This document shows positions 6,010 through 32,951 of a DNA stretch of 41,240 nucleotides, in pieces; the first letter of the stretch is position 1, and each line of letters starts with the position of its first letter. The position numbers and the translations under genes are program-made. The stretch spans positions 1-41,240 of the IMG/VR virus record IMGVR_UViG_3300025889_000022. One strand, given 5' to 3'. The notes beneath the pieces are model-generated. The model searched no databases. It had not been told where the DNA came from and was given only the letters and a program-made list of their open reading frames with translations. The stretch comes from a virus.

Positions 6010-6226
6010 CTCCAGCGAGCCTCACCTTATTGACGATCTTGTTGGTCCGCTCAGCAGCCTTGTTATTCAAGGCGCGTGACCGGCGCTCGTATTCATATTT
6101 GCCCGCTGCCTTGCCCTTCGCGAAAACCATTGCAAGACCAATCAACGCGGCACCGATAATGGAAATCTGCAGGGCGAAACGCGCCCACACGGCGCTCAGC
6201 CAGCCCATCAGCAGCGTGAAGATCAT
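5966..6226 (-). CDS. Rz-like inner-membrane spanin
   Basis: The 86-residue protein has one N-terminal membrane segment (about residues 10-35, WLSAVWARFALQISIIGAAL...) followed by a charged helical periplasmic part (YEYERRSRALNNKAAERTNK). This is the topology of an i-spanin. It overlaps the lysozyme stop by ATGA and overlaps the lipoprotein gene. It is shorter than lambda Rz, so the two-component spanin call rests mainly on context and topology. Confidence 0.7.
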   Translation of the reverse strand: MIFTLLMGWLSAVWARFALQISIIGAALIGLAMVFAKGKAAGKYEYERRSRALNNKAAERTNKIVNKVRLAGDEEVERRLDRYYRD

Positions 6227-6948: not shown

Positions 6949-6959
6949 GCTGTCCATCC

Positions 6960-7217
6960 TCACTTCGTGACTTGCTTCCCGATGTGCAGCAGGCGCTCGT
7001 CCATCATCTTGGTCCGCTCGTCCAGCCGTGACATCGTCTGCTCGATCTTGGACAGCGACTGCCACATCCGTACCTGATCGCTGTCCATCTTGGTCATATC
7101 GGCCTCTAGCCGCTCGACCTTGTTGGACAGCTTTGACGCCCACCAGATGGTCGTGGCCGCGTGGCCCAGAATTGAAAAGGCCAACCCCCAGAACGCAATT
7201 GAATCTAGAGCAAACAC
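6960..7217 (-). CDS. Small TM plus coiled-coil protein of the lysis region (holin candidate)
   Basis: The 85-residue product has an N-terminal hydrophobic segment (about residues 6-28, SIAFWGLAFSILGHAATTIW) and then a heptad-patterned coiled coil to the end (LSNKVERLEADMTK...SLSKIEQTMSRLDERTKMMDERL). It lies immediately upstream of the lysozyme, where holins or antiholins are often found. One membrane span plus a coiled coil resembles XhlA-type proteins with inverted order. The role is inferred from position. Confidence 0.65.
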   Translation of the reverse strand: MFALDSIAFWGLAFSILGHAATTIWWASKLSNKVERLEADMTKMDSDQVRMWQSLSKIEQTMSRLDERTKMMDERLLHIGKQVTK

Positions 7218-17043: not shown

Positions 17044-17062
17044 GGTTGTTTAGCCCCTCTTA

Positions 17063-17452
17063 TTAGGCCATCGTCAGGTCAAGCGACCCGGCGCTGATCT
17101 TGAGTTCGTCGTTGACTGCAATGGCCACCGAAGCTGTGAGAGCGCCGTGCCAGAGGCAGTTGCCAGCGGTCGAGGCGTCCCACACGCTGACGTGGCTGAC
17201 AGTTTCCCAGTTCGTCGTCGTGTTTGGGCCAAACGTCAGGTCGGCGGCGTTGCTGGCGGTGTCGCCCGTAACCGTGAACGTGGCGCTCTGGCGGGCGTAG
17301 CCATTGCCGCTGATTTCACCAGTAGACGGCGAAGCGTCGGACGGGGCCGAGGTGTGCAAGGCCACATACCACGCAGTCGGGCGCGTTGCCGACCCGGTGG
17401 TCATCAGCCAGTCCAATATCAGGTTTTCTGCGTGATCGGTAAGCGCGCTCAT
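17063..17452 (-). CDS. Tail protein of the AWYVALHTSAP (Gp80-like) family
   Basis: The 129-residue protein carries AWYVALHTSAPSDASPSTGEISGNGYARQ, the conserved core of a small phage tail-fibre-like family, then HVSVWDASTAGNCLWHGALT and a strand-rich end. Its stop and start overlap those of neighbours. It would be a minor tail or baseplate component; precise placement in the virion is unknown. Confidence 0.75.
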   Translation of the reverse strand: MSALTDHAENLILDWLMTTGSATRPTAWYVALHTSAPSDASPSTGEISGNGYARQSATFTVTGDTASNAADLTFGPNTTTNWETVSHVSVWDASTAGNCLWHGALTASVAIAVNDELKISAGSLDLTMA

Positions 17453-18066
17453 CCGAATGTCCTCTTTCGTGAATGAAGGCCACCCTCTGGACGCTTGGCG
17501 CGTTCAGAAGCATAGCCAATTGCATCGATGCTGCCTTTGTACATGCTGGCCCACATCGGCATGCGTTCATCGTTTTTGAGATATGGTTCAGCGTGAACCA
17601 GCGACCCGAACAGGTAAGCGTCCGGGTGGTTTGCCAACAGCCAGTTGCTGGTATTGTTATTCGACAACGTCGGTATCTTGGCGTAGTAGGTCATCTCGAC
17701 ATCCGTAGATGCCGAGGGTGCCGGGAAGATTTGGAACTTGTTGTTGATGATCGTGTAGACGATTGGATCACCTGCCCGCTGGGTGGCTCTGACCTCGGCC
17801 ATCCCCATTTGGGCAACGTATTCCAGAACGACCGGCGGCGAGCCGATGGTGATCAGGCTGATTGTCTCCAGCCAATCGACCGGCATGTTGACGTAACCAC
17901 CGCTGATAGTGGACGTGTCCCGCTCGATCATTTCGTTAACGCGAAGCTGCCGGTTGAGAGCCGCTTCAGTCAGCGTGATAAAGGTCGGGATCACCGAGGT
18001 GAGATCGTCGCGGTTTAGCCAGTCAGCAATCGCTGTCTGCAGTTCCGCATACGTTGAGATCGCCAT
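17449..18066 (-). CDS. Head-tail adaptor (SU10-type adaptor family)
   Basis: The start at 18066 (MAISTYAELQTAIADWLNR) follows the glycosyltransferase stop with an ATGA overlap. The 205-residue helical protein carries YAELQTAIADWLNRDDLTSV, FITLTEAALNRQLRV and DWLETISLI, the pattern of the phage SU10-type adaptor that docks under the portal. It lies two genes after the capsid, the usual position for connectors in short-tailed phages. Confidence 0.8.
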   Translation of the reverse strand: MAISTYAELQTAIADWLNRDDLTSVIPTFITLTEAALNRQLRVNEMIERDTSTISGGYVNMPVDWLETISLITIGSPPVVLEYVAQMGMAEVRATQRAGDPIVYTIINNKFQIFPAPSASTDVEMTYYAKIPTLSNNNTSNWLLANHPDAYLFGSLVHAEPYLKNDERMPMWASMYKGSIDAIGYASERAKRPEGGLHSRKRTFG

Positions 18067-18761
18067 CAGTTGGCCTCCAAGATCACCGGCTTGTCCTCGG
18101 CCTGCAGTTTCTTGCGAGCCGCAGTCACCTCGTCCTTCCAGACTTCCGCGTGTTCGTGGCGGTAGGCGAAAGTGCCGATGTGTTCGATTTCCTTGCTGGC
18201 ATCGTGGTCGAGCCAGACGGTGTAACCAGCCTCGCGGGCGATGCGGCAGAAGTAGATGTCTTCGCCTGAGTAGTTGCCAGAGCGGGCGCTGTAGCCGATC
18301 AGGTGCCACGGCATCGGCAGCTTCTTGTAGACATCTGCCTTGACCAGCATGCAGCCCATACCCATCGAGGCGACCTCTTCGAGGCCGGTGCTGTCTTCGT
18401 GGGTGTAGACGTGTTCAAGCGTCTTGAAATTCTTGAAGGCTGTCGGATGACAGGGCATGCGCCGCGTGGCGTAATTGCAGCCGACAATGTCCTTCTTGCG
18501 ATCCGCAAGCTGGCGGTAGATGTCCTTCGGAAACCTCATGTCGCTGTCCAGCCACAGGATGTGGTCTGCCCCGGCGCTGAGAGCCTCTCTGGCGAGGTTT
18601 TCGCGCTGGTCGCAAATCAGCGTACCCATCGAGGTTAAGGTCACCAGAGAGCCGCCTTTAGGGGCTTCGTGAGCGCCGAAGAATGCCGACATGCGGGCGA
18701 GGTCATAGGCAAACCCGGCATCGACCTGATCTCGGCAGGGAACGCAAACTGCTAGTCTCAT
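18066..18761 (-). CDS. Glycosyltransferase-A-like protein in the head-tail operon
   Basis: The 231-residue protein starts MRLAVCVPCRDQVDAGFAYD, reads VTLTSMGTLICDQRENLA and has ILWLDSDMRF with Asp72-x-Asp74, the metal-binding DxD of GT-A glycosyltransferases. Later GMGCMLVKADVYKKL and YSGEDIYFCRIAREAGYTVWLD are characteristic of GT2-like acceptor-site segments. It is embedded between structural genes with ATGA overlaps. It may glycosylate virion or host surface components; the substrate is unknown. Confidence 0.8.
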   Translation of the reverse strand: MRLAVCVPCRDQVDAGFAYDLARMSAFFGAHEAPKGGSLVTLTSMGTLICDQRENLAREALSAGADHILWLDSDMRFPKDIYRQLADRKKDIVGCNYATRRMPCHPTAFKNFKTLEHVYTHEDSTGLEEVASMGMGCMLVKADVYKKLPMPWHLIGYSARSGNYSGEDIYFCRIAREAGYTVWLDHDASKEIEHIGTFAYRHEHAEVWKDEVTAARKKLQAEDKPVILEAN

Positions 18762-19066
18762 TAGATGGCTCCTGATTTGGTTCTGAAGAACCGATTGTCG
18801 TAATCATTGAGCCACCGCTTCATTGCCTCGTCGTCGTCGGCAATGCCCTTCCGCTTGAGGTCGTAGTAGATCGACAACGGGATTGATGCCACGCGGGTCC
18901 ACTCACCCCAGCGATCCGGCGCGTTGTTGTACGCATCCCGGTTGGCCTCGATGATTGGAGACATGTCCTGCTCCGTCTCGATGTAGAAGCAGTTGTCGCT
19001 GTCGTCGTAATGGAAGAAGCGGCGAATGCCCAATTCCGGGCTTTCGCTGAACGGTATACGGCTCAT
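18761..19066 (-). CDS. Conserved podovirus-type hypothetical protein (101 aa)
   Basis: Start 19066 (MSRIPFSE) is preferred over ATG 19078; neither has a strong ribosome site. The protein reads GIRRFFHYDDSDNCFYIETEQDMSPIIEANRDAYNNAPDRWGEWTRVASIPLSI..LNDYDNRFFRT, a pattern typical of a small protein lying between capsid and adaptor in many short-tailed phages. Its function is not established. It follows the terminator at 19117-19134, so it may need its own or read-through transcription. Confidence 0.75.
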   Translation of the reverse strand: MSRIPFSESPELGIRRFFHYDDSDNCFYIETEQDMSPIIEANRDAYNNAPDRWGEWTRVASIPLSIYYDLKRKGIADDDEAMKRWLNDYDNRFFRTKSGAI

Positions 19067-19091
19067 GTGATGATCCATCTAATGGGACGTG

Positions 19092-19106
19092 CCGCCATCT
19101 CGGCGG
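19092..19106 (-). other. Covarying intergenic hairpin, copy 1
   Basis: CCGCC - 5-base loop - GGCGG, downstream of the capsid gene and just past its terminator on the minus strand. The same hairpin recurs at 21223-21237 and, with a compensatory T:A for C:G change, at 20140-20154. It could be an RNA processing or stability element of the head-gene transcripts. Confidence 0.5.
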
Positions 19107-19116
19107 GATAGTGAAA

Positions 19117-19134
19117 GGGGGGCCGAAGCCCCCC
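19117..19134 (-). terminator. Intrinsic terminator-like hairpin after the capsid gene
   Basis: On the minus strand a 7-bp GGGGGGC stem with a TTCG tetraloop lies 8 bases after the capsid stop and is followed by TTTCACT. The T-run is short, so termination may be partial, which would set a drop in expression from capsid to tail genes. The 34508-34525 hairpin has the same CCCCTTTCACT tail. Confidence 0.65.
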
Positions 19135-19142
19135 AGTCAGAC

Positions 19143-20114
19143 TTAGCTGTCAAGCAGGTCGGCAATGATGCCGTGCGCAGCCTGATTTTTGACCTTGAGG
19201 CCGAACTCAACGAGGATCATGCGGCGCTCCGAGTCGCCGGTCACCGCGAGCTTCTTGGTCTGGTAGCCGCGCAGATACGCGACACCCGCATACTCCGGAT
19301 CGAGGACGAACACGTCACGCGAACGCTGGAAGCGGTTTGCGATCATGCTCACCTTGCCGAAGTCGGACAGATACACGTCAGCCGTACCCACGATTGCGAA
19401 AGGCTTGGCCGAGGTGTTGTTCATCCGGTTGGCCTGAATGCCGGTGAAGGCCGATGCCACGGTCTTGTTGTGCGCACCCGCCATCATGATCTTCGGATCA
19501 CCGCCGTTGTTCCACATCGACTGGATCACGTCCTTGAGCATCTGCTCGGTGAAGGTACGCTGAGTACCGTCAGTACGGGCCGTGTCGATGTAGCCGTTCG
19601 GGGCCGAGGTCAGAGCGCCGTTGGAGCCGTCACCAGCCTTCGAGACGTTGGAGGTCAGCCACGTCGGAAGACCGGCGGTCTTGCGAGCGGTGGTCGAGTC
19701 ACCAATGACCGATGCCTGATTGAACAGCAGGGCGGTTTCTACGTCCCGCTTCAGTTCAGACGAGGCGCGGGCCATATCGTAGGCAAGCCTGCTCTTGTAA
19801 CCTGCGGAATCGACACTCTCGATAGTGCCGGAGGTGCCAACGACCTTGCGGCTGATCTGAGTGTAGTTCCCGACGCGGTTAGTAGCCGCGCGGCTGTCGA
19901 GCGTTGCGTCGTCGCCTTCAATTGCGGCATTCGTAGTAGAAGCCGCTGCAAGCGAGTCGGTAAGCCATTCGAAGTAAGTATTGGACACGTTTTCACGGCC
20001 AACATTACTCATAAATGGGGTTTCCTCTGGCGAGATGTCATATATCATGCTGGAGAGGTCTTCACGAATATTGTTCGCATCATATTTGTCGAACAGGTTT
20101 GTCGGCTGAGCCAT
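19143..20114 (-). CDS. Major capsid protein (SU10-type)
   Basis: The 323-residue protein contains DLSSMIYDISPEETPFMSNV, FEWLTDSL, GNYTQISRKVVGTSGT and the terminal FGLKVKNQAAHGIIADL, the pattern of the SU10 major capsid family (HK97 fold). No protease or fused scaffold is visible. It lies directly downstream of the scaffold gene, with a good ribosome site (AAGGAGGA). It forms the icosahedral shell and should be the most highly expressed late product. Confidence 0.92.
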   Translation of the reverse strand: MAQPTNLFDKYDANNIREDLSSMIYDISPEETPFMSNVGRENVSNTYFEWLTDSLAAASTTNAAIEGDDATLDSRAATNRVGNYTQISRKVVGTSGTIESVDSAGYKSRLAYDMARASSELKRDVETALLFNQASVIGDSTTARKTAGLPTWLTSNVSKAGDGSNGALTSAPNGYIDTARTDGTQRTFTEQMLKDVIQSMWNNGGDPKIMMAGAHNKTVASAFTGIQANRMNNTSAKPFAIVGTADVYLSDFGKVSMIANRFQRSRDVFVLDPEYAGVAYLRGYQTKKLAVTGDSERRMILVEFGLKVKNQAAHGIIADLLDS

Positions 20115-20139
20115 TGCTCATCCTCCTTCTAAGGACGCG

Positions 20140-20154
20140 CCGTCATCACGACGG
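20140..20154 (-). other. Covarying intergenic hairpin, copy 2 (scaffold-capsid)
   Basis: CCGTC - 5-base loop - GACGG between the scaffold stop and the capsid ribosome site. It differs from the copies at 19092 and 21223 by a compensated pair (T:A for C:G) and by one loop base, so pairing is retained. Flanking GGACG/CGTCC is shared with copy 1. Confidence 0.5.
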
Positions 20155-20165
20155 GGCTGTGGTTG

Positions 20166-21197
20166 CTAAAGAAGGGTCTCAAACAATGCGGCTGCATCGT
20201 GTATCGACCCAGACTTGGCGAGACGCTGCTTTGCCTTTGTCTGCTTGGTCTGGCTGCGAGGGGCGGCTGTTGCCGATCCTGCAGAGGCCGTGCGTGGCCC
20301 CTTTGAAGCTGCCGCCTTTGGCCGCTTGGCCATCATGCGGTCGTACTTCATTGCCTTGTTCAGAATGACGATTGCCTTGTGGTCGTAGGCCGCGTTCAAC
20401 TCTTCGTCCGAATAGCCCATTGAAAGGCCATACTCGCGCAGAGCCACACGATCTGCATCCCACCGGGACTTGTCTCGCCACTCCGGAATGGCTTCCAGCA
20501 GCTTCTGCTTACTCAGTTCGATTTGCTGCTTGGTCGCCATTGCGCGGGCTTGCGCTTCTTGCTGCGAGAGATATGCCTTCTCGGCTTGTATCTTCTGCAG
20601 CTTCTGCGCCCGGTCATTCCAAACGTCCCGCTGACGAACATATTCAAGCGGGTCTTCCTCATACAGACGACCCCAATCAGGCTCTTGCGGCTGCATCTCT
20701 GCCAGCGTCTGTTCAAGCGCAGACAGCAGGGTCGCATACTGTTGGCGTTCCTCGCGGATTTCGTTCAGTTCGCCGTGTAGCTGCGACCGTTCAGCCGAAA
20801 GCTGTTGGGTCTTTTGGGTGAAAATGGCCTGCCTCTGATAGCCTTTGACTACCTCGTCCAGCGGAAGCCGCTCTTCCTTGCCGTCGATCTTGACGGTGAC
20901 AAGATTGGCTTCTGGTTCGGGGTCTTCATCGGCATCATCGTCATCAGCCATCGCCTCTACGTCATCGGCACCATCTTCTTCCGAACCTTCCGGCTCGTCG
21001 TCTAGTGGCGTCTCATCCGATTCCGCTTCGGCTGCAAGCGCCTCGGCATCATCAGCCGGGGCATCCTGTTGTGGTGCAGATCGCTTATGAAGGGTTGGGT
21101 TCTCCGCTTCGCGGTCCAAGAATGCTTCAAAGGCATCAACAACACTGGAGGGTCCAGTCCCGCCCGGTGGAGGGGTCGGGGTATTGGAAGTAGTCAT
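20166..21197 (-). CDS. Head scaffolding protein
   Basis: The 343-residue protein has a disordered, very acidic N-terminal part (about residues 45-95), a long coiled coil (about 125-235, QLSAERSQLHGELNEIREERQQ...) and a basic, Ala/Lys-rich C-terminal tail (MAKRPKAAASKGPRTAS). This acidic, coiled and basic layout, next to the capsid gene, is the classic scaffold form. The basic tail would bind the capsid shell during procapsid assembly. Confidence 0.85.
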   Translation of the reverse strand: MTTSNTPTPPPGGTGPSSVVDAFEAFLDREAENPTLHKRSAPQQDAPADDAEALAAEAESDETPLDDEPEGSEEDGADDVEAMADDDDADEDPEPEANLVTVKIDGKEERLPLDEVVKGYQRQAIFTQKTQQLSAERSQLHGELNEIREERQQYATLLSALEQTLAEMQPQEPDWGRLYEEDPLEYVRQRDVWNDRAQKLQKIQAEKAYLSQQEAQARAMATKQQIELSKQKLLEAIPEWRDKSRWDADRVALREYGLSMGYSDEELNAAYDHKAIVILNKAMKYDRMMAKRPKAAASKGPRTASAGSATAAPRSQTKQTKAKQRLAKSGSIHDAAALFETLL

Positions 21198-21222
21198 CAG
21201 GTTTCCTTCTCAGGGATATGCG

Positions 21223-21237
21223 CCGCCATCTCGGCGG
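21223..21237 (-). other. Covarying intergenic hairpin, copy 3
   Basis: CCGCC - 5-base loop - GGCGG, between the 21248 gene and the scaffold start. The 16-base core is identical to the 19092 copy. All three lie in the intergenic gaps bordering scaffold and capsid genes. Confidence 0.5.
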
Positions 21238-21247
21238 TGCGGTTCAC

Positions 21248-21499
21248 TCACTGGCGTTTCGAATTGATCCGCCTGTTGTGGGCTTCGACCTCAAGGCCAC
21301 GGGCCACACTCCGCATCTCGTCGCGCAGTTCCTCGACTGCCTTGTATCGATACCAGCACTGCTCGCGGCTGATCGCATCGTCCGGGTTGGTCGATGCCCA
21401 CCGCTCAAAGTGCATCTTCTGGATCGCGTCCAGAGCCTCAGTCAGCACCGGGTCATCGAGCAGTTCACCTGCCCGTCTGGCCTTCTCTTCACGGTCCAT
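21248..21499 (-). CDS. Small hypothetical head-region protein (83 aa)
   Basis: The helical protein (MDREEKARRAGELLDDPVLT...EAL, then DDAISREQCWYRYKAVEELRDEMRSVARGLE) lies between the virion-amidase gene and scaffold. Its length, charge and position match small conserved head-assembly proteins in podovirus-like phages. No catalytic motif is visible. The spacing to the scaffold contains a covarying hairpin. Confidence 0.75.
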   Translation of the reverse strand: MDREEKARRAGELLDDPVLTEALDAIQKMHFERWASTNPDDAISREQCWYRYKAVEELRDEMRSVARGLEVEAHNRRINSKRQ

Positions 21500-21506
21500 A
21501 AATGCC

Positions 21507-24500
21507 TCAGATCAATGCTGCGGGTTCGCCGCCCAGAAGACCCTGTTTGCCTGCAGCCTCGCGGGCAGCGGCCCAACGCTTTTTCTCACGCTTGCACTCG
21601 TCGTCCTTGCAGGGCTGCACCTTGTCCATCTTGCCCTTGCCGCGATCCCGGTAGACTTCGCCGGTATTGAGGACGATGGTCTTGGTGTCCGGATCGACAG
21701 CGACAATGGCCTCTGGCGGTTGATCTGGGTCAACCAGACCGCCGTTCTGCTTTGCCGCCTCTTCCGCCACCGCCGCCGTCTGCTCGGCCTGTTGCTGGGG
21801 CGGGATCGACCGGGTCTTTTCGGCCTTGAGGCTGTCTGCCTTGGCCGTCCTGTTGACGCCTTGGAACGACGGCATGCCTTCTGGCATCAGCCCGTCCATA
21901 ATCTCGGCCAGCGGCCCTACAACCGGCTCTGCCTGTGCGACCTGCGGTGCTGGGGCTGGCTTGCTGGCTTCCAAACGGTTGGTGTTCTTCTTCAGCGAGG
22001 CGAACTGGGCGACATCGATGCCTTGGTTCATCGCAGCCGTGGAAAGCCGAGACAGCGTCGGGTGGTCTTTGACCGTCAGCGTCTTGGTCTTCTCGTCATA
22101 CTGCAGGCCAAGGTTTCGAAGGCCCTTGAGCGCCTCTGTCCTGATCCGCTCATCCGAGATGAAGCTGGAAGCAAACTTGCCAAGCATCTCCTCGGCTTTC
22201 TGCCGACCGATCTGCAGGACGCGGGCTTCATCGATCTTGAACGACCGAGGCTGGTCGTAGGTGTCGGTGGGGCCATCTTTGAACGGACCTGCCCAACTTG
22301 CAGCACCCGGCACCCCTTGCTGAGCAGCCAGTGCAGCGTCGGCCTCGGCTTCGCTTAGCGCCGCGCCTTCCAGACCCTCTGTGTCACCGCCAATCTGGCC
22401 TTCCATATAGGCGTCCCAGAGCGCCTCCCGCTCGTCCTTGGACAGCCCGTTGTAGTAGTCAGCAGCGGCCTTGCCCTCATCGGCCTGCCGCATCTGCTTG
22501 CTCGACCATCGACCAGCCTTGCGAGCCTCTGCTGCACCCTGATCGCCCTGATATGCGCCGTGGTATGTCACCATCATGTCGGGCGAGGCGAAGGGCTGTC
22601 TAGCCAGCCAGCTTGCCAGCTTTGCGCCAGCCTCGATTTGGGCCTTCGTGACATCCGCGTTGTTCTTGGCGATGACCTCGACGCCGATGGAAGTGGAACT
22701 GCTCACGCGCGGGTTTCCAGCGCCAGTCCACCGCTTGTTCTTGATGCTGTCGCTTGTGTGAGAAGCCTTGGAGTTCGGGTTTTTCGTTAGCTGGTGAACA
22801 GTGCCATCGCGGTCGATCATGAACTGCACGGCCACTCCGCGAGCCTTCATGCCATTCATGTGGGCTTTGCGCGATCCCGGTCCAGTATGGTGGAAGACCA
22901 GCGCGTCTACAGTTTCAATGTCACCCCGATCTCGGAACCAGCCCTTGTCTTCGGTGTCGATGAACGAGGGTTGATCAGCCGCGCTCTCAGCGTCAGCCTC
23001 CCCATCCGCTCCCTCGCCCTGCAACAGCCCCTTGATCGGGTCGGTGATTGCGTCTGTTACCTTCTCAACAGCCTCTTGCGCCTTCTCGACAATCGTCTCG
23101 CCCGTCATCGGCTTGTCTGCCGGTGCCGAGACCGGTTCTGCAACCGGTACATCCGGCTTTGGACGCACTGCCTGTGCAGGCACGCCGGACGGGGTGCTGC
23201 GCGACGGGCCAAGCAACGACTCTGGCGGGTACACGACCAACGGCGGCTTTGGCATCGGGATCGGCGGGGCCGAGATCGATGGCTGGGCCGGGGGAGCAGG
23301 CGGCTGGGAAACCGGGATGCTCACCGTCGATGTCCGCGATGCAGGCTGCGGAAGACCACTCGGCATTGTCCGCCCAATCTGGCGGAACGTGTCTGCGATC
23401 TCCTCCGGGCTTGCCGCTCCGAGAAGGCCGCGTGTGTAGCCAGCGGCTACCGGGTCGGTATTGGCAAACGAATAGTCTGCACCCAGTCCTGCATTGCCGG
23501 TGTAGGGCCGTGACGGGGCTGGGAGACCGGCGTCATCCATTTGCCTACTGGCTTCCATCGCCACCGACTCGGCTTGCTGTGCCTGCCGCTGTGCATTCTG
23601 CGCCAGAGCCTGTCGGCCCATTTCCGCAGCCATCTCTCGCTGCGCCATCTGGGCCTGATCGACCGAGCCATAGGCATCGACAGCCGCGCTTTGCTGGCGC
23701 TCACTGGGGGTGCCATACGGGTTGTTCTCGTTCGCAGCGACATCGATGGTGCCGAGGTCAACCGGCTCCGAGAAGTCGTCAGTGTTGACCGTGGTGTAGC
23801 TTTCCGGCTCCGGAACGCCAAGGCGATCCTGTATGGCTTTAGAGGCTTGTACCGGGTTCTGGCCAAAGCCAAAGTCACTTGCAATTGCCTGCCCCGTGAT
23901 CCGGCCTATGTCGAGTAGGCCACTGATCGTCGGGTTAAGACCGGGGCCACTGAGTGGGCCACCGAAATCCTGTTTGACGCCATATGACGGCTGGGCCGGG
24001 GGGTTGGTCTCGGAAAAGTCAGAGACCGCGCCCACATTCGAAGGCGCAAAGGCATCACGCACCGCTGCCGCATCGGATCGGGGGCCGAAACCCGATACGG
24101 ACTGGCCAGCTACCACTCCCCCCAAGCCGATACCTGCCATTGTGTCAGCATCAAGCCCAGACCATCCCCCCATAGCGTCCATAGCAGACGGGGTGCCAAG
24201 CGAGCCTTGGCCAATGCCGGTGGCGGAACTCGGCCCCATCCCCATTGACGGGGCGTAGCCGCCGAGAGGGTCGGCGTTGACAGACTGCCCCCGAACAGCG
24301 GCGGCAATTGCGCTGTCGAGGCCCATCTGGCTGGACGTGCTGGATGGAGCCGAAGGCGCTGGCGCAAACGATCCAAAATCAGTCATGCCGATAGCTGAAG
24401 TCGGCGCAGAGGCAAGAGAGCCAAAGTCTGTCAGGCCCAACGTAGACATATCGCCAAACGCCAGCGCGTCCGACGCTGCAGTCGTCGCCAGACCATTGGG

Positions 24501-24977
24501 CATCGCGGTAACCGTTGTCGGAGCCGAGATCGTCGGCAAAGCTACTGGCGGTGCTGTTACGGTCGGCGCTACAGTCGGCACAGACGGCGCGGCTACAGAC
24601 GGCTTTGCCTGATAACCAGATGCCGGTGTCAGGCCGCTGTTGAACGCCGCTACACCAGCTTGAAACGCCCCATAGTTGACGTTGCCCGGTACAGCGTTGC
24701 CATAGGCGTAGCCGCCACTTGTGTAGCCGCCGACCTGACCGCCGCCAAAGTTTGTGTTCTGCGCACCACCCGTTGCCGATGTCTGGCCAAAGCCGCCCGT
24801 GAAGTTGCCGACACGGGCCTGATCAATGCCTTGATCACTTTCTGGCCCCAGACCGCCGCCAAAGTTGCCGTTTGTTGACGCACCGCCGCCGGAACTGGAC
24901 CCGCCGCCCCCGGAACCTCCGCCGTCCGATCCGCCATAGCAGGGACGCGGCAGGAATTTCTCAAGAAACCCTTGCAA
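21507..24977 (-). CDS. Giant virion protein with N-acetylmuramoyl-L-alanine amidase domain
   Basis: The 1156-residue product starts with a Gly/Ser-rich, then Ala/Pro/Thr-rich low-complexity region (about residues 15-680) with many short repeats. An amidase_2 domain follows (about 685-850) with FHHTG near residue 695, a second His in KASHTSD and SIGVEVIAKN, the zinc ligands and fold of peptidoglycan amidases, plus VTYHGAYQG. The tail is helical and ends with an acid/Lys segment (QPCKDDECKREKK). It probably opens the cell wall during DNA entry. Its length is well beyond usual amidases. Confidence 0.8.
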   Translation of the reverse strand: MQGFLEKFLPRPCYGGSDGGGSGGGGSSSGGGASTNGNFGGGLGPESDQGIDQARVGNFTGGFGQTSATGGAQNTNFGGGQVGGYTSGGYAYGNAVPGNVNYGAFQAGVAAFNSGLTPASGYQAKPSVAAPSVPTVAPTVTAPPVALPTISAPTTVTAMPNGLATTAASDALAFGDMSTLGLTDFGSLASAPTSAIGMTDFGSFAPAPSAPSSTSSQMGLDSAIAAAVRGQSVNADPLGGYAPSMGMGPSSATGIGQGSLGTPSAMDAMGGWSGLDADTMAGIGLGGVVAGQSVSGFGPRSDAAAVRDAFAPSNVGAVSDFSETNPPAQPSYGVKQDFGGPLSGPGLNPTISGLLDIGRITGQAIASDFGFGQNPVQASKAIQDRLGVPEPESYTTVNTDDFSEPVDLGTIDVAANENNPYGTPSERQQSAAVDAYGSVDQAQMAQREMAAEMGRQALAQNAQRQAQQAESVAMEASRQMDDAGLPAPSRPYTGNAGLGADYSFANTDPVAAGYTRGLLGAASPEEIADTFRQIGRTMPSGLPQPASRTSTVSIPVSQPPAPPAQPSISAPPIPMPKPPLVVYPPESLLGPSRSTPSGVPAQAVRPKPDVPVAEPVSAPADKPMTGETIVEKAQEAVEKVTDAITDPIKGLLQGEGADGEADAESAADQPSFIDTEDKGWFRDRGDIETVDALVFHHTGPGSRKAHMNGMKARGVAVQFMIDRDGTVHQLTKNPNSKASHTSDSIKNKRWTGAGNPRVSSSTSIGVEVIAKNNADVTKAQIEAGAKLASWLARQPFASPDMMVTYHGAYQGDQGAAEARKAGRWSSKQMRQADEGKAAADYYNGLSKDEREALWDAYMEGQIGGDTEGLEGAALSEAEADAALAAQQGVPGAASWAGPFKDGPTDTYDQPRSFKIDEARVLQIGRQKAEEMLGKFASSFISDERIRTEALKGLRNLGLQYDEKTKTLTVKDHPTLSRLSTAAMNQGIDVAQFASLKKNTNRLEASKPAPAPQVAQAEPVVGPLAEIMDGLMPEGMPSFQGVNRTAKADSLKAEKTRSIPPQQQAEQTAAVAEEAAKQNGGLVDPDQPPEAIVAVDPDTKTIVLNTGEVYRDRGKGKMDKVQPCKDDECKREKKRWAAAREAAGKQGLLGGEPAALI

Positions 24978-25368
24978 TTGCTGCTCCCATCTTTGCGTAT
25001 GGCTTGCGCCAAGGCCGACGCCACTGGGCGTTCACGCCGTCACCGTACCGCTCGCCAAAGTACCGGCGAGCCTCACGCACAATCTTGCCTACCGATCCAT
25101 ACGGGGCGACCAGATCGATGATCCACAATTCGCCCTGATCGTTTACCCAGTCAGCCCCGCCAATCACGTCATTGTCGTGCAGACGTTCCAGACCCGCATC
25201 ATCCAACATCACCCACGTCATGACCGCCATACCGGGCCAGTGAAGCAGCTTGCCGTTGTTGGCCGCGTCCACGAAGCGATACTGTACCTGCCACAGCGGG
25301 ATGTTGTCGTAGGCCCGTCCCGCCAGCAGCAGGTGGACGATGTCACCGACCGCTGCCGCCGTGATCAA
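24961..25368 (-). CDS. HlyC-like toxin-activating acyltransferase family protein
   Basis: The 135-residue product has HWPGMAVMTWVMLDDAGLER and ELWIIDLVAPYGSVGKIVREARRYF, closely matching the D-containing block of RTX toxin-activating lysine acyltransferases (HlyC: WFIDWIAPFGDN). The conserved Asp is present. By my alignment the catalytic His near residue 23 of HlyC corresponds to a Tyr (RAYDNIPL), so activity may be lost. It is coupled to the portal gene (ATGA) and overlaps the amidase gene by 17 bases. Its role in a virion operon is unknown. Confidence 0.65.
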   Translation of the reverse strand: MITAAAVGDIVHLLLAGRAYDNIPLWQVQYRFVDAANNGKLLHWPGMAVMTWVMLDDAGLERLHDNDVIGGADWVNDQGELWIIDLVAPYGSVGKIVREARRYFGERYGDGVNAQWRRPWRKPYAKMGAAIARVS

Positions 25369-27446
25369 TTGGCACCATTCATCGGCCCGCGTGGCATTTC
25401 CATCTTGGCGATGACGCCCTCGATGTTGACCGGCTTGTTGTATTTCAGTTCCAGTTCAGCGGCCTTGAGCATTGCGTCTGCAATGTCCTTGTCGCGCTTG
25501 CGGTCGTCGTCCATCTTCTGGCTCATCGCATCCTGCTGGGCCTTGCCCTGTGCAATGGCGATGTCTGCCTTGATCTTCTCGGCCTCGACCTGTGCCAGCA
25601 TCTGGGCCGGATCAGGCTTTGGAGGCTGTTGGGACGCGGCCTGTGCGGCTTGCTCTGCCTGTTGGGCAGTGATGGGCTTGAAGAACTTGGCGGCGTCCTT
25701 GAAGCCGTTCAGTTCCAATATGCGGCCCAGTGTCGTGCGGTACTGTTCCAGCGTCACCAGCGGATTGCCGGGGCCGAACTGGGTCAGTATCTGCTCCTGC
25801 TTGCCCAGCACCTGCATCAGCAAGGCGGTCTTTTCGACCGGGCTTCCGTTGCCGAGGCCGACGTTCACCACAACGTCCATTTCAGCATTCCACGCCGAGG
25901 GATCGACCGGCACCCACTCGTTGCGCAGGCGTACCACGCGAGGGCGATCCTGATGGCGGATGGTCATCTTCAGAAGGCCCTTGAACAGGCGCTTGATGCC
26001 GGTCTCGGCAAACACGCGGGCCACCATCTCCAGACGCTGTTGAGCCGCCGCCATAGTGGCCGTGACAGCCGCCTTGGTGGTAGACTGCAGGACATCGGCG
26101 TCGAGGCCCTGAGATGCCTTTGTAATGCCCGTGCGAGCCGCTCTGATGTCGTCAAGATAGGCAATGAGGGGGATAGCACTCTGGCCGACAAACGGCTCTG
26201 AGAGAGGCTGTACGGCCCCCGGAGCCTTGACGCGGATCACACCCCCGATTTGCGTATTGAGGACATCGTCCAGATTAGCCTGAGACTCGACCACGACAGT
26301 GCGCGGGTGGATTACCTGCGCGAGGCTGTCGAGGGTGGACCGGATCAGGTTGGTCTTGATGAGTTGCAAGTCCTTCACCTGATCGGCAATGCTCGCCCCG
26401 ATGAGGGTATGAGGCGTCGGGTCCGGGCAAAGCACCGCAAACGGCACGTCTTCGACCACTTCGTCGTGCAGGATGTACGCCGCACCGCCAATCGAGCAAA
26501 CCTTCCTCAATTCAGCGATGCCGTCGCCGTCCTTGTCCACCCGGATGTAGCTTTCAACGTACAGAATCTTCTCATTTGCCTCATCGACCGCATTGGCGCG
26601 GGAGAAGCGGAAATTGAGGGCCTCGTTACGGGTTTCAGCCTCGGTGTTCAGTTCGAAGCCGTCTGTCGAGCCGCCATTTTCGCGGATTTCGTCCTCATCG
26701 TAGCCCATTGCGACCAGTTCAGAGACCGTCGCCAGCTTGCGGTGGCCAATATACTCGGCTGTGTCGAGATCGCGGGCATTTCTGGCGACCAGAAACTCTT
26801 CCGGCGGGATGCATTCGACGCGGAAACGCGGGGTCTTGCGAGTGCGGCGGATTTCCAGCGAAATCGTCGGCGGAAGCCCCTCTTCTTCCTCGATTTCCTG
26901 CTCCAGTATCTCGACGCCTTCGTCCAGAAGCAGGATCGCAACGTCTTCCTCGGTCATGCCGGTGTATTTGTACTCGGCAACCTCGGTGTCCTCATCAACG
27001 CGCCACTTGATCACGCCCGTCTTGGAGATCAGGGCGTCCTTCATCGCGTTGTAGAGGATCGAAAACCCGTCATTGTCGCTGTTGAAGATGTAATTGATGT
27101 AGTCAGTGGCCTGCTCTGCCGCTGCAATGTCCTCAACCTTGCGCGGGGCGAACTCTACCGCCTTCTCACTGCTGCAGAAGACCCGGAGCAGCGACGGCAT
27201 CATCGCTTGCACCACGTCCCTGACCTCGGACATGACAATTTGCGACCTGCCCTCTTCTTCGTTACCGATAAAATCTCCCCTGTAGTAAGAAAGCGCCTGT
27301 TCGCGCTCCGGGGCGATGTGTTCATCGATGTAGAAGGTGGCGTCAGAGATCGCGGACTTGATCACGCCCTGATACTTCTCTTCAGCCATAGGCTCTTTGT
27401 CGCCCAGACCGTGTTCAGCGATCTCGTCGTCGTCTTCGTAAGCCAT
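25365..27446 (-). CDS. Portal protein (P22/SU10-type)
   Basis: The start at 27446 (MAYEDDDEIAEHG) has AAAGG 7 bases upstream. The 693-residue protein reads YYRGDFIGNEEEGRSQIVMS and then DALISKTGVIKWRVDED, EFLVARNARDLDTAEYIGHR and LDDIRAARTGITKASQGLD, the core of the P22/SU10-like portal family, with a long C-terminal Gln/Lys helix (QQPPKPDPAQMLAQVEAEKIKAD). It forms the dodecameric ring at one head vertex through which DNA enters and leaves. Confidence 0.92.
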   Translation of the reverse strand: MAYEDDDEIAEHGLGDKEPMAEEKYQGVIKSAISDATFYIDEHIAPEREQALSYYRGDFIGNEEEGRSQIVMSEVRDVVQAMMPSLLRVFCSSEKAVEFAPRKVEDIAAAEQATDYINYIFNSDNDGFSILYNAMKDALISKTGVIKWRVDEDTEVAEYKYTGMTEEDVAILLLDEGVEILEQEIEEEEGLPPTISLEIRRTRKTPRFRVECIPPEEFLVARNARDLDTAEYIGHRKLATVSELVAMGYDEDEIRENGGSTDGFELNTEAETRNEALNFRFSRANAVDEANEKILYVESYIRVDKDGDGIAELRKVCSIGGAAYILHDEVVEDVPFAVLCPDPTPHTLIGASIADQVKDLQLIKTNLIRSTLDSLAQVIHPRTVVVESQANLDDVLNTQIGGVIRVKAPGAVQPLSEPFVGQSAIPLIAYLDDIRAARTGITKASQGLDADVLQSTTKAAVTATMAAAQQRLEMVARVFAETGIKRLFKGLLKMTIRHQDRPRVVRLRNEWVPVDPSAWNAEMDVVVNVGLGNGSPVEKTALLMQVLGKQEQILTQFGPGNPLVTLEQYRTTLGRILELNGFKDAAKFFKPITAQQAEQAAQAASQQPPKPDPAQMLAQVEAEKIKADIAIAQGKAQQDAMSQKMDDDRKRDKDIADAMLKAAELELKYNKPVNIEGVIAKMEMPRGPMNGAN

Positions 27447-27463
27447 TGTGTGCCTTTCAGAGG

Positions 27464-30400
27464 TCACAGAAGCGGCGCTGGGCCGTCTTTCTCGCGGTTG
27501 TAGTCGAGGGCCTCGGAGCCAAGTATGCCAAGGCCACCGCCGATCCCGGCCAAGCGCATCGCGCGGATCACATCTTCATGCGTTGTCTTCTCGCCGCCGA
27601 CAGCGTCCCAGATGCTGTGATGCGTCAAATGCTGGTAGTAGGGCTGCAGCTTGCGGGCCGTCTTGACCTGCATCGCCTTCTGGCGGGCTGCGAGGCGGTC
27701 AACAGCCTCATTGCCACCCTTCCCACCCTTGCGGGCGATGTACTTCGACGCCTCTTTGGTCGGCCTGCCGGTGTGCAGGATGATCTGGCGGGCATCGAGG
27801 GTCGGCAGGTCGCCACGGCCAATCAGCGAGGCAAAAAAGCCTGCCTTCGAGGGGCCGATGCCGAACATGTCCTTGGCAAACTCACGCCACTCATCCGGCG
27901 TCGAGGCAAAGTTCTTGGCGCGGGCAACCAGATCAGACGCCCTGCTCTCATTACCCGGCAGGTTCTCAGCCGCCCACCGCAGAGCCTGCGGGATGTCGGT
28001 CTCATGCTTGCCAAACGGGGCCATCACCTTGACCGCGTTGGCAATCGCCTTCTCGTCAACCTTACCCTTCTCAGCCTTGTCGAGGTAACGCTTGCCAATC
28101 GGTGACAGGAGCCACTCCGAGAACGCGCCTTCCGGGCGGATTTTCTTGATGGACGGGTCCAGCTTGAGACCCGCAGCCCGAACCTTGTCGGCATCGACAG
28201 ACTGGCGCTGGATGCTCGACCGGGTGATGGTAAATGCCTTGATAAGATCACGCGCCGTCAGGCCAGTTTCCTCGGCCTTCGTCGCCATCTCATCCATAAA
28301 GTTCCCGAACTTCTTGACGTGCGGGGGCTGCTCCGTAAGGCCAACCTCGGCGGCAACCTCTTTGGCATCGCGCCAAGCCCAGTCATCGAGCATGCCGGGG
28401 GCATCTACGTAGTCGTCAATCGGCTTGCGGATCGCATCAGGGCCAAGAAGGCCGATGATCTGGTCTTCGGGTACGCCAGCTTGGCTCAGTTGGGCAGGGG
28501 AGAGGTTGCTTGCTGCTGCGAGACGATCTTCAAAGCCTCCTCCAGAGCGCGGGGGTGCGTATACTCCACCATTTCGATTTGGCCCAGTATTTCCTCGTCC
28601 GAGATTGCTTCCGGCCCCCGCTGCTCGCACATTTGCGTCAGCCGACCGCCCAGCACCCGCAACTGCCGAGGCGTCAGAGAGGCCAGTTGTGTCGGGTACA
28701 GCGTCTTCACGCGATCCCCGAATGCTTTGAATTGCAGCGGCTCGTTCTGCATCTGAACCTTCCCATCTCATGACAACGACATCGGGGAAACCCTGAGACT
28801 CGTCCCAGCCATCCCGACGCCAAGCATCCAAGAGGTCATTATAGGCCCTCTCGCCGTGGTCTGCAATGTATACGTCCTTCGAGAACGGCACCCGGCCAGC
28901 CTCGGTCCAGCCGAACTGGCCATAGTAATCCGGCAGAAAGCCGTTTGGATACTTAGCCGACTTGACCGCGAAGGCGTCGAGGATGTTGACGCCGCTCTCC
29001 AGCGCCTTCGACATGATCGCAGGCACCGCAAAGCCCTTGGAATTAGGCTCGTTGTTGACCACCCCGACAAGCGCCTTGTCGCCCGGTCTGGGGTCAACGC
29101 CTGCCCAAGAATAATCAGGCTTCTTGTCGATGCCGAAAAACACCTGTGAGTCGCCAAGCTGGAACGCTTGGAACTCGCCATTCTTGTAGGCCCTCTCGAT
29201 CTCCTTGGAGTCGTAGTTAGTCAGCGCAGGCTTGTAGGGGCTGTTCTCGATCCCGCGCTGGAAATCGGTCGCGCTGATGCCACCCTGCTTCTGGGTGACG
29301 CCCTGTGTCTTCCAGTTGTCCAGAAGGTAGTGAGAGTAGAGCCGGGTCTGGGTCGGCGTCAGGCTGTTGGCGTCCAGAGCCGCAGCGTTCATTGCATCGA
29401 TCTGGCGCTGGCCGATAACCTCTGAAGGACGCTGCATCGAGAACGCCCGGTAGGCGTCCTTCTCAGGCGCAAGCATCGTGCGCGGGTCCGACCAGTAGTC
29501 GGTGAACATGCTCTTCATGCCGGTCGGGTTCTCAAGGATGCCGTACACCTCGCCCGGAAGGCCCCACTCATAGCTGGGGTTCGGGATACCCGCCTCGGCC
29601 AGATTTACCGCATGACCGGCTGAAAAATCAGGCTTCAGAAGCAACTGGATGTCACCGGTAGGGGTGCCACCCAACAGCGGCTCAATCGTCTCATCGAGGA
29701 TGCGCTGGACGTTCGGAAAGCCGAGGCTTTGCGTCCTCGACTTGGCCATCTCCTTGGCAATTTCCTTGCGGGCCTCAAAGCTGATCGAGCGCAGGAACTC
29801 AGGCAGCTTCGGATCGCCAATGCCGGGGAACTTCACCAGCGCCTTCAGCTTTTCATTGCTGCTCTTGCCCAGACCCCGGATCGAATTATTTACCTCGGTC
29901 ACAGCGGCAGGCGACACGCGCCCGTCGCGGATGTAGGCCGCTGCGGTGTCCATAATGTCAGTCACGACCGCCGTGTTCGACATGTGGCTGTTGTCAGCCA
30001 TACCGGCAATGGCAATCAGGTCAGGGTTCTGGTTCTTCTTCAGCTTCAGAATGTTTTCGCTGTCGTTGGCCCAGACCACGCCCTTCGCCACGTTCTTCGG
30101 GTCAAACGCAAAGCCAGCGCCGCCTGTGGTCACGCGAGGAGCAACCTTGCTGCTGTCTATGCCCTCATATACCGACCCGGCAGCATACTTGTCGGCAAAC
30201 GACGGCATGATCCGCGCGTCACGCAATTCTTCCGGCTTCAGCCGCCGAACATTCGGGTCCGCGAGGGCCTGCTCCCAGTACGTTTTGCCCGATCCCAGTG
30301 GGACGCTCTGCTGTGGTGCAGGCTTCCCGTCCAGCGCCGCCAGCGCCGTGTCAATGGCATTGAGCATCGGCTTGATCGGGTCCACGCCAGAGTTCATCTG

Positions 30401-30985
30401 GCCTGCCTGACCGGAAAATGCAGGGCCACGCTCTTCCAGCCGTCGAGCCGCATTCGCAGCCTCAACTCGGCGGGCATTGTCCAGCGTCAGCCCGGATCGC
30501 GGCAGTACGCCACCACCCGCGATCTCTGGCATCATGACATCCATCATCATGCGGGCGTCACGCGCGTTCTTGACCGTGTCAGAGCGATCCGCACTCACAC
30601 CAGTCAACTGCGAAATCTCATCGAGGATCGCACCTGCCGTAGCAGCGCCAACCCCGGCCAAGGCGTCTAGGCCACCCAGAGCCATCTTGCCCTGCGCCAT
30701 CAATCCTTCCGGCGACAGCGGGTTTAAGGCAAACGGGTTGTCTGCAATGTCCTGCGCCCCCGATGCCATCATCTCGCGGCCACCGGCAGTCTGCTCCGAC
30801 ATCGCGTCCCACAGCGTCGAGGGCTGGGGCTGCATCGTCTGGACCTGATCGGCAGGCACCCACTGGCCGGTCGTCATATCCCCGTCCGGGCCGGGAACAA
30901 ACACCATACCCCGCTCTGGAACAGCCGTCTGCTGGCGCTCATAAAACTCGCGCGGATAGACGGTCAGTTCAAGCGGGCCAGCCAT
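27464..30985 (-). CDS. Giant late protein upstream of portal, multi-domain
   Basis: The start at 30985 (MAGPLELTVYPREFYE) overlaps the upstream stop by ATGA. The 1173-residue product has an Ala/Gly-rich N-terminal part, then a conserved-looking segment with YGQFGWTEAGRVPFSKDVYIA and LDAWRRDGWDESQGFPDVVV (about residues 680-740), a low-complexity linker (about 745-835) overprinted by another ORF, and a C-terminal domain whose GIGPSKAGFFASLIGRGD LPTLDARQ (about residues 1045-1075) resembles a helix-hairpin-helix DNA-glycosylase-type element. It is likely a polyvalent virion or ejected protein; domain roles are inferred. Confidence 0.7.
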   Translation of the reverse strand: MAGPLELTVYPREFYERQQTAVPERGMVFVPGPDGDMTTGQWVPADQVQTMQPQPSTLWDAMSEQTAGGREMMASGAQDIADNPFALNPLSPEGLMAQGKMALGGLDALAGVGAATAGAILDEISQLTGVSADRSDTVKNARDARMMMDVMMPEIAGGGVLPRSGLTLDNARRVEAANAARRLEERGPAFSGQAGQMNSGVDPIKPMLNAIDTALAALDGKPAPQQSVPLGSGKTYWEQALADPNVRRLKPEELRDARIMPSFADKYAAGSVYEGIDSSKVAPRVTTGGAGFAFDPKNVAKGVVWANDSENILKLKKNQNPDLIAIAGMADNSHMSNTAVVTDIMDTAAAYIRDGRVSPAAVTEVNNSIRGLGKSSNEKLKALVKFPGIGDPKLPEFLRSISFEARKEIAKEMAKSRTQSLGFPNVQRILDETIEPLLGGTPTGDIQLLLKPDFSAGHAVNLAEAGIPNPSYEWGLPGEVYGILENPTGMKSMFTDYWSDPRTMLAPEKDAYRAFSMQRPSEVIGQRQIDAMNAAALDANSLTPTQTRLYSHYLLDNWKTQGVTQKQGGISATDFQRGIENSPYKPALTNYDSKEIERAYKNGEFQAFQLGDSQVFFGIDKKPDYSWAGVDPRPGDKALVGVVNNEPNSKGFAVPAIMSKALESGVNILDAFAVKSAKYPNGFLPDYYGQFGWTEAGRVPFSKDVYIADHGERAYNDLLDAWRRDGWDESQGFPDVVVMRWEGSDAERAAAIQSIRGSREDAVPDTTGLSDASAVAGAGRSADANVRAAGAGSNLGRGNTGPNRNGGVYAPPRSGGGFEDRLAAASNLSPAQLSQAGVPEDQIIGLLGPDAIRKPIDDYVDAPGMLDDWAWRDAKEVAAEVGLTEQPPHVKKFGNFMDEMATKAEETGLTARDLIKAFTITRSSIQRQSVDADKVRAAGLKLDPSIKKIRPEGAFSEWLLSPIGKRYLDKAEKGKVDEKAIANAVKVMAPFGKHETDIPQALRWAAENLPGNESRASDLVARAKNFASTPDEWREFAKDMFGIGPSKAGFFASLIGRGDLPTLDARQIILHTGRPTKEASKYIARKGGKGGNEAVDRLAARQKAMQVKTARKLQPYYQHLTHHSIWDAVGGEKTTHEDVIRAMRLAGIGGGLGILGSEALDYNREKDGPAPLL
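28486..28752 (-). CDS. Overlapping ORF inside the giant gene (88 aa)
   Basis: In another frame within the giant gene, 28752-28486 encodes MQNEPLQFKAFGDRVKTLYP, then LRVLGGRLTQMCEQRGPEAI and ISDEEILGQIEMVEYTHPRA, a globular-looking helical sequence. It has GGAAGG about 5 bases before its ATG. Its codons show the GC-rich third positions typical of this genome, whereas the giant gene's frame here reads low-complexity Gly/Ala/Ser/Asn with mixed third positions. This argues for a real or recently real gene. The family is unrecognised. Confidence 0.5.
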   Translation of the reverse strand: MQNEPLQFKAFGDRVKTLYPTQLASLTPRQLRVLGGRLTQMCEQRGPEAISDEEILGQIEMVEYTHPRALEEALKIVSQQQATSPLPN

Positions 30986-31533
30986 CAGCGACCACCTCTC
31001 TTCCACCAGTGGTGGCCGTAGTACTTCGGCTCAGAGCCGGTTTCCCAGCCGCCTTGAAAGTTCATGTCGCCGCCGCTGTTGGGGTTGCCGAAGCCGTCAA
31101 TGCGGTCCCGATACCGACCCCCGAAGCCCAGTGAGCCGCCGTACAGGACGTTACGCAGCGCATCACGGCCATCGTCTGTCTTGGCCCAGTCAATGAAGCC
31201 CTGATTGGTAGGCAGTGAGGCGTAATCCATCACACTCCCCGTATCAGCCGCCGGGGGTGTTGCCGGGTCCGGTGAAGGGGCTGGTGAGGGAGCCTGTGAG
31301 ATCGGCATCATGCCCCCACCATAGTTCGGGGGCGTATATCCAGCCGGTGATCCCGCAGGCATGCGAGGCCCCAGAACGCCAAACTGGCCATACTGCTCGC
31401 GCCAGTCATTCCACCACTGCGGCGCATACGCCGAGCCAGTGGCAATATCCCCGGTGCCAGTGTCCTCGGTCTCTTCGTCGCGGCTCCGCCTGCCTTCACC
31501 GCGTCCGCTGCTGCTGCCGCTCGATCCACCCAT
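30985..31533 (-). CDS. Gly/Pro-rich hypothetical late protein (182 aa)
   Basis: The start at 31533 (MGGSSGSSSGRGEGRRSRDE) shares an ATGA with the terminase stop. The sequence is low-complexity at first (Gly/Ser, Glu/Arg), has a Pro-rich block (SQAPSPAPSPDPATPP), a short conserved-looking part (NQGFIDWAKTDDGRDALRNVLYGGS) and ends in HHWWKRGGR. It is probably a flexible virion protein. No family is recognised. Confidence 0.65.
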   Translation of the reverse strand: MGGSSGSSSGRGEGRRSRDEETEDTGTGDIATGSAYAPQWWNDWREQYGQFGVLGPRMPAGSPAGYTPPNYGGGMMPISQAPSPAPSPDPATPPAADTGSVMDYASLPTNQGFIDWAKTDDGRDALRNVLYGGSLGFGGRYRDRIDGFGNPNSGGDMNFQGGWETGSEPKYYGHHWWKRGGR

Positions 31534-32948
31534 CACACAATCCCCTTGATCACACGCCGCAGCGGCTTGCCCGGTATCCAGTGAGACGAACGCCCACCAA
31601 CCCCCGCAGCCATCGATGCAAACGTCAGACAAATAGCGTCAGCCAAGTCCGGAGAGCGCATGCCCCGGCGCTTCATCTCAGCCTTGCCCTCAACCTTGAT
31701 CTTGCCGCTGCTCGTAAACGTGAAACTCGGCGTCACCAGTTCCTGACGCAACTCATCGCTCTTCGGCAGCTTGCAGGCCCGCGCCTCAAGCCACTCCTTC
31801 AGCGACAGCCACAACTCATCCCGCAACTTCGCCGCCTGCTGGTTCAAGGCAGACGCCTCGGACACATTCACGTCCCGAACATTCCACCCCAACTCGCGCA
31901 GGCGATCCGCAACCCCGGAACCCAGCCCAATCGAGTCAACCATTATCTCGACCGGCTTGTCCTTCTTCGCCGCGTCAACCACACGGCCCACCGTCTCCAT
32001 CAGATCAGCACCAGTCCAATGCACCAGATCAGTGATCACATTGCCCTGACGCTTGCACAAGACAGTCCGATCAGACCCGAACCTCGCAACGTCAACCCCA
32101 TAGACAACCGGAACACCCTCATCCAAGAAGATGTCCCGATCCATCGCCGCATCCACCAACTCAGCCGGGATCAGCGTGTCATCATCCGCTAACGGGAACT
32201 CACCCAGCACCCGCACACGATACGCATTCGACCGATCACCATACGTCTGGCGAATTTGCTCAACAAAGTCCGGGTCAACATACGGGTTGTCTACACAACT
32301 CACCCGCATCGTCTTCCACGACTCGCTCAAGCCGTGATGGGTCTGGAAAAACAAGCCACTCGACCGCGTCGGGTTGCCAATCAATACCGTCGTCGCAGAC
32401 CGACCCGACATCGAGCCAGCCGCACTCTCATACACCTTCTCCGGAATAGCCGACGCTTCGTCCGCAATCAGCAGCACGTTCTCCGAGTGAACCCCAGCCA
32501 ACGCCTCCGGACGCTCCGCTGAACTCGTCCTCGCAGAGATAAAACTACTCTCCGGCGCAGCCCTCAAAACCACACGGTCGCTGAACACCTCAAAGCTGTC
32601 CCGCAACCATTCCGGCAACCGGTTGATCCAGTGCTTCAACTCCGCGAACAACGCGTCAAACAACTGCCCCGCCGTAGGAGCCGTGCAGATCGTCTTCTGA
32701 GGGTACTTCACGCTCATGTGCCAGATCATCGCCCAAGCACACGCAACCGACTTCCCAACACCGTGACCCGCCCGGATCGATATACGCCGAACACCAACAT
32801 CTCCCACACTCCGTAGCAAATCCTCCTGCCACGGCTGCGGATCAGCACCCAAAACATCCCGAACAAACCCAACCGGATCGTCCCGATACCGCTCAACAAA
32901 CTCTACCCAAACGCTCGCCGCCGATTTTTTCATATTTTTTCGGCCCAT
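31533..32948 (-). CDS. Terminase large subunit
   Basis: The 471-residue protein has Walker A RAGHGVGKS (residues 59-67), Walker B LLIADEAS (159-166), a nuclease domain with Asp286 (GVDVARFG), Asp338 (MVDSIGLG) and Asp434/437 (RSPDLADA). These are the ATPase motor and RNase H-like nuclease of TerL. ATG 32948 is used; GTG 32951 and ATG 32933 are alternatives. Codons from about 31750 to the start prefer G/T at the third position, unlike the C/G-rich neighbours, suggesting an imported segment. Confidence 0.95.
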   Translation of the reverse strand: MGRKNMKKSAASVWVEFVERYRDDPVGFVRDVLGADPQPWQEDLLRSVGDVGVRRISIRAGHGVGKSVACAWAMIWHMSVKYPQKTICTAPTAGQLFDALFAELKHWINRLPEWLRDSFEVFSDRVVLRAAPESSFISARTSSAERPEALAGVHSENVLLIADEASAIPEKVYESAAGSMSGRSATTVLIGNPTRSSGLFFQTHHGLSESWKTMRVSCVDNPYVDPDFVEQIRQTYGDRSNAYRVRVLGEFPLADDDTLIPAELVDAAMDRDIFLDEGVPVVYGVDVARFGSDRTVLCKRQGNVITDLVHWTGADLMETVGRVVDAAKKDKPVEIMVDSIGLGSGVADRLRELGWNVRDVNVSEASALNQQAAKLRDELWLSLKEWLEARACKLPKSDELRQELVTPSFTFTSSGKIKVEGKAEMKRRGMRSPDLADAICLTFASMAAGVGGRSSHWIPGKPLRRVIKGIV

Positions 32949-32951
32949 CAC

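Follow-up and report, generated by a model that had tools for sequence, protein, structure and literature searches.

We identified a phage gene in which a single stretch of DNA is highly likely to encode two proteins in two reading frames, constituting a conserved nested gene pair. The window, the whole 41,240-base virus record that we analyzed, belongs to a podovirus-like phage whose portal is of the SU10 type (PF23899, E 2.4e-217 in Pfam). Within it, one ORF lies wholly inside another, on the same strand and in a different frame. The features of the two genes are listed here by position in the window.

27464–31006, minus strand: giant ORF, 1180 aa, open from GTG 31006
27464–30985, minus strand: giant gene, probable extent, 1173 aa from ATG 30985
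28757–29287, minus strand: GNAT-like (acetyltransferase-like) region of the giant protein, its end adjoining the start of the small gene
28753–28763, minus strand: ribosome site of the small gene, GGAAGG (28763–28758) plus a 5-base spacer, in giant codons W-E-G-S
28486–28752, minus strand: small gene, 88 codons plus stop, ATG start, contained entirely in the giant ORF, +1 frame
28490–28753, minus strand: giant linker, Gly/Ala/Ser/Arg-rich, dual-coding with the small gene
28430–28489, minus strand: giant tail, a short conserved motif (LSPxxL...G...) after the overlap, at which many relatives end
27464–28429, minus strand: giant C-terminal part, whose homologues elsewhere start an ORF of their own or lie N-terminal to the GNAT-like region

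The giant gene sits between the genes for the terminase large subunit (31533–32951, minus strand) and the portal, and hence among the virion genes. Its start is probably ATG 30985 rather than GTG 31006, because the former shares a TGATG overlap with the stop of the preceding gene. That gene (ORF 30985–31632, minus strand; likely true start ATG 31533) is joined to the terminase gene by a TGATG stop-start overlap as well, and the ORF at 25365–27467 (minus strand) likely begins at ATG 27446.

The giant protein combines its GNAT-like region with a C-terminal part that other phages encode as a separate unit. The GNAT-like region resembles Streptomyces phage proteins annotated as acetyltransferases (best E 2e-3) and weakly matches phrog_2563 in PHROGs. 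Pfam GNAT models give weak matches in relatives only (E 0.02–0.05), and a Pfam search with the window's own giant returned no domain above cut-off. Polyvalent proteins are likewise large and encoded among virion genes, and GNAT and InPase domains are described in the class (Iyer et al. 2017, PMC5512222); the window giant differs in lacking a recognized polyvalent Pfam domain. We consider the giant a probable polyvalent-type protein because it is encoded among virion genes, contains a GNAT-like region and has a C-terminal part that is reused as a module; by analogy with the published class, it may be delivered into the host with the DNA.

An earlier, sequence-only reading of the window had proposed an overprinted gene in the giant's low-complexity linker, and the local features on which it drew are present. 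The 88-codon ORF occupies 28486–28752 with both frames open, each giant codon over the overlap combining the last base of one small-gene codon with the first two bases of the codon after it. Its ribosome site, GGAAGG, ends five bases before the ATG, with a duplex value of −7.1 that is equaled or exceeded in strength by 5.5% of 476 background ATGs. Third positions are GC-rich in the small frame, where GC by codon position is 0.66/0.40/0.74, and the giant frame has poor third-position bias over the same bases (0.75/0.67/0.41, versus 0.64/0.47/0.73 across the entire giant ORF). The segment best fitting the small-frame codon phase is 28767–28466 (26.2 nats), and the giant frame's usual bias returns on either side. 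The two products also differ in composition: GASPNTRDQ residues make up 76% of the disorder-like giant linker versus 51% of the small protein. AlphaFold2 with a single sequence, which may be over-confident on helical proteins, predicts five helices for the small protein (pLDDT 77.7, with residues 11–60 averaging ~91).

ORF length alone is weak evidence against chance. When synonymous codons were re-drawn with the giant's amino acids fixed, the small frame was stop-free in 45% of draws, owing to the Gly/Ala/Arg-rich linker, which suppresses stops in shifted frames, and some ORF of at least 85 codons arose in 35%. These figures speak for the explanation that only the giant is real and its GC-rich linker leaves an untranslated small ORF open by chance, an explanation we nonetheless regard as very improbable. 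Codon choice in the linker is out of keeping with it. The giant-frame linker has a GC3 of 0.40 versus 0.67 expected (z −5.5) and a synonymous codon fit of z −6.7, and the small-versus-giant codon score of +24.5 nats was reached by none of 26,673 open draws under a model in which only the giant is real. Open off-frames in 841 presumed-gene windows never scored above −18; the training and background genes were uncurated ORFs that we picked ourselves, a few with wrong starts. GC3 is ~0.52–0.80 in the twelve top-ranked windows listed from other low-complexity stretches of the phage, and values of 0.41 or less occurred in 4 of 1435 windows, all four within one probable mis-start.

Searched on its own, the window's small protein had no counterpart in phages, plasmids, IMG/VR or one-per-species genomes. 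Relatives were found through the giant protein. Its C-terminal part shares 57% identity with the beginning of a separate MW202675 gene, and an alignment of this part retrieved 65 IMG/VR loci, often at the start of large ORFs. One of them, L121, has counterparts of the middle and the GNAT-like region of the giant (31% identity, E 3e-83), followed in the same frame by a similar linker and, at the matching position in the +1 frame, by a 79-codon ORF. Similarity between the L121 and window small proteins is modest, with 23 of 2000 shuffles scoring as high. A scan of IMG/VR with an alignment of the GNAT-like region alone, which leaves openness downstream unselected, gave 133 relatives, and the best 80 of these 133 were fetched. 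In all 80 as well as L121, the giant frame stays open for 95 codons or more beyond the GNAT-like region, and an ATG-initiated ORF of 72–100 codons lies in the same place and the same +1 frame. The small ORF starts 4 or 1 bases after a common reference point or 5 before it, and at isolated loci 7 bases after or 26 before. All pair-carrying relatives are metagenomic or IMG/VR contigs.

Both readings are thus retained in 81 of the 83 relatives examined, which upholds the proposal of an overprinted gene, and none of the 81 loci that keep the linker has a giant frame running through a broken small ORF. The ORF's ATG and frame are retained at all 81, counter to expectation for a chance ORF. The two exceptions, L139 and L151, have neither the small ORF nor the W-x-G with which the linker starts, and their GNAT-like region extends just 52–57 codons to a stop at the start of the next gene. 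At these loci (~5700–5960), the GNAT-ending ORF stops at the ATG of the gene for the C-terminal part, so that the modules are separate, without a small gene. In a tree of the GNAT-like region rooted on the Streptomyces phage proteins, both nest among carriers, within a nine-member clade with support 0.98, and the absence of the small gene there reads as loss.

The W of W-x-G (TGGNNNGG), just before the small-gene start, is kept in 80 of 81 relatives, and its codons overlap the ribosome site. Across the family this site has a median duplex of −5.4, equaled or bettered by 14.6% of 4001 background ATGs, and is only moderately strong. A contig error merging the frames, which we also considered, is unlikely: a second contig of this virus, drawn from a different IMG/VR record (L063), differs from window positions 16031–21896 at 1 of 5866 bases, near the end, although this comparison lies outside the overlap stretch.

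Both frames are very probably under selection, as indicated by the avoidance of stops in the giant frame together with calibrated control frames. For this analysis, synonymous codons were re-drawn according to each locus's own usage in 18 representatives under 60% identity. Over the small gene, the giant frame contained 0 stops versus 104.7 expected. Two shifted frames of the GNAT-like region, used for calibration, gave 270 observed versus 284 expected and 166 versus 160, and the third frame of the small ORF gave 111 versus 94. Conversely, given the giant protein, the joint chance that the small frame is open in all 18 representatives is ~10^-21. When the two readings of the shared bases are compared pair by pair, conservation is higher for the small protein in 28 of 30 pairs and equal in one, some of the pairs in this and the four-fold comparison being near-duplicates. 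At four-fold sites of the small frame, 213 of 973 differ, versus 822 of 2402 in the GNAT-like region and 626 of 1666 upstream; this suppression is uneven, the difference rate being lower than that of the GNAT-like region in 20 of 30 pairs and lower than that upstream in 18 of 25. On the joint openness and the conservation of the small protein, the explanation that only the giant is real already fails comparatively. Together with the codon score and the 81 conserved loci, the joint openness leads us to reject a chance ORF.

The converse explanation holds the small gene alone to be real, with the giant normally ending after its GNAT-like region and its frame being open beyond by accident or sequence error. 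It draws on the free-standing GNAT-like proteins of Streptomyces phages, which end directly after the PDVVxM strand, and on the window linker, which displays the small frame's codon phase. We find it scarcely credible in view of the missing giant-frame stops and of the tail motif, which is conserved in the giant frame past the small gene; the near-identity of the second contig, outside the overlap though it lies, also speaks against sequence error.

A nested pair kept by selection on both frames is compatible with a further proposal, which concerns history: that the small gene came first and the giant linker was overprinted onto it once the stop of an upstream GNAT-like gene had been lost. We lean toward this account by a narrow measure, and a small gene older than the linker frame is slightly favored. 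The linker's disorder-like composition, the better conservation of the small protein and, in the window, the fit of genome codon usage to the small frame and not to the linker are all in its favor. A spanin survey (PMC6139136) describes stop loss that reads across a neighbor as a possible origin of embedded genes. The sequence-only reading had also suggested that the small gene may be older; the window's codon fit supports this, but among 17 representatives no more than 9 have a codon fit in favor of the small frame. Both frames fit codons poorly in these 17 (medians −5.2 and −4.8), as dual constraint would give. Also at odds with an ancestral small gene, the two loci without it nest inside the GNAT-like tree, leaving the pre-overlap state to the distant Streptomyces proteins alone, and a profile search of 55,502 ORFs of fetched DNA found no free-standing small gene.

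An alternative origin in the same earlier reading, fusion of two genes around the small gene, is partly sustained: a giant continuing from the tail into the C-terminal part was seen in 0 of the 81 other loci, and elsewhere the C-terminal part begins an ORF of its own or lies upstream in the same ORF. We had entertained a recent stop loss joining two genes around the small gene, given that the GNAT-like proteins of Streptomyces phages stop at this point and that other loci begin a separate ORF with the C-terminal part; this idea was overturned by L121 and the 80-locus scan. In the other 81 carriers the C-terminal part, where found nearby, is upstream (ten loci), and its order after the tail is seen in the window only. 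The relative of this part in MW202675 is fused to InPase (PF18823): the multidomain ORF at 7992–10718 (L002) ends in this domain (E 2.5e-47) and was deposited as "type I restriction enzyme", a name that looks wrong. In the window, the C-terminal part (27464–28429, minus strand) carries GIG..KAGF...GRGD.PTLDARQ, and we take its GIG..KAGF / PTLDARQ motif to be reminiscent of HhH-GPD DNA glycosylases. An AlphaFold2 model of this part was poor (pLDDT 52.5).

The small proteins, 82 including that of the window, comprise at least 53 members (53 distinct sequences) in 18 groups below 60% identity and share motifs in alignment. Identity between the window protein and the 17 relatives aligned with it is just 17–35%; even so, with the window left out, the profile of the remaining 52 sequences finds the window ORF at E 9.8e-13. 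With the full 53-member profile there were 82 matches, all at the overlap and none elsewhere among the fetched ORFs. Outside these loci, the small protein had no counterpart in 50,697 phage records, PHROGs or Pfam; one search of phage records gave solely an unrelated archaeal virus (E 8), and matches of the family to PHROGs and Pfam were weak and came from single members only. NCBIfam returned one weak match (E 0.0079, bits far under its cut-off), and fold searches with the model of the small protein gave none at E ≤ 0.001. A designed repeat protein in PDB, matched at E 6e-5 with a single sequence and at 0.064 with the family profile, was dismissed as reflecting helical composition. No relationship to the small protein was apparent for small portal-adjacent genes of SU10-type relatives, the relatives' GNAT-plus-tail or N-terminal part had no match in phage records at E 1e-3, and no such family was named among the open-licence papers searched. 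The small protein thus appears to represent a family that is new within the collections and papers searched, conserved and, judging from the structure model, mostly helical.

We propose that one mRNA of the head/packaging module is read in two frames. Ribosomes in the giant frame would produce a polyvalent-type protein consisting of the GNAT-like region, then a flexible linker, then the short conserved tail. Other ribosomes would initiate within the same message, at the Shine-Dalgarno site in the giant's W-x-G codons, and read the linker bases in the +1 frame into an independent, mostly helical protein of 72–100 aa. We infer that both nested products are made in the cell. Since the small protein occurs only with the giant in the loci examined, we tentatively suggest that it could serve the giant as a partner or packaging chaperone. 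A somewhat more doubtful elaboration is that it is a dedicated partner (an escort, a packaging adaptor or an inhibitor that holds the giant inactive in the producing cell) encoded within the effector's gene. If so, the partner would travel with the effector module between phages, and losing it would damage the effector.

Out-of-frame embedded genes are a known kind, exemplified by Rz1 in Rz of phage lambda, where the small gene likewise has a start of its own and is fully contained, in the +1 frame, in the longer one; embedded genes are also often missed by gene callers (PMC6139136). Rz1 is an outer-membrane lipoprotein for lysis, whereas the small protein described here is predicted to be helical and is encoded in the head/packaging module; by eye it has no N-terminal hydrophobic signal or lipobox, whereas a two-component spanin would pair a lipoprotein from the inner gene with a membrane-anchored product of the outer one. 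Overprinted viral gene pairs can similarly encode a structured and a disorder-like product in shared bases, although those covered in the portion of PMC8227390 considered here are mostly from eukaryotic viruses and do not include this family. The terms "overlapping", "alternative frame" and "frameshift" are absent from the main text of PMC5512222.

To our knowledge, few fully nested gene pairs with long conservation are documented in tailed phages outside the spanins. The pair reported here suggests that linkers of large phage proteins may hide whole genes, and disordered linkers with a shifted codon phase and kept-open frames offer a route to more of them. The small protein may, in addition, point to an unrecognized partner of injected phage effectors. 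Elsewhere in the window, the ORF at 6223–7143 (minus strand) has off-frame codon composition in its first ~60 codons, the probable real start being an ATG near 6950, and the large ORF at 21507–24977 (minus strand) has a Gly/Ser-rich N-terminal stretch followed by an amidase domain (PF01510).
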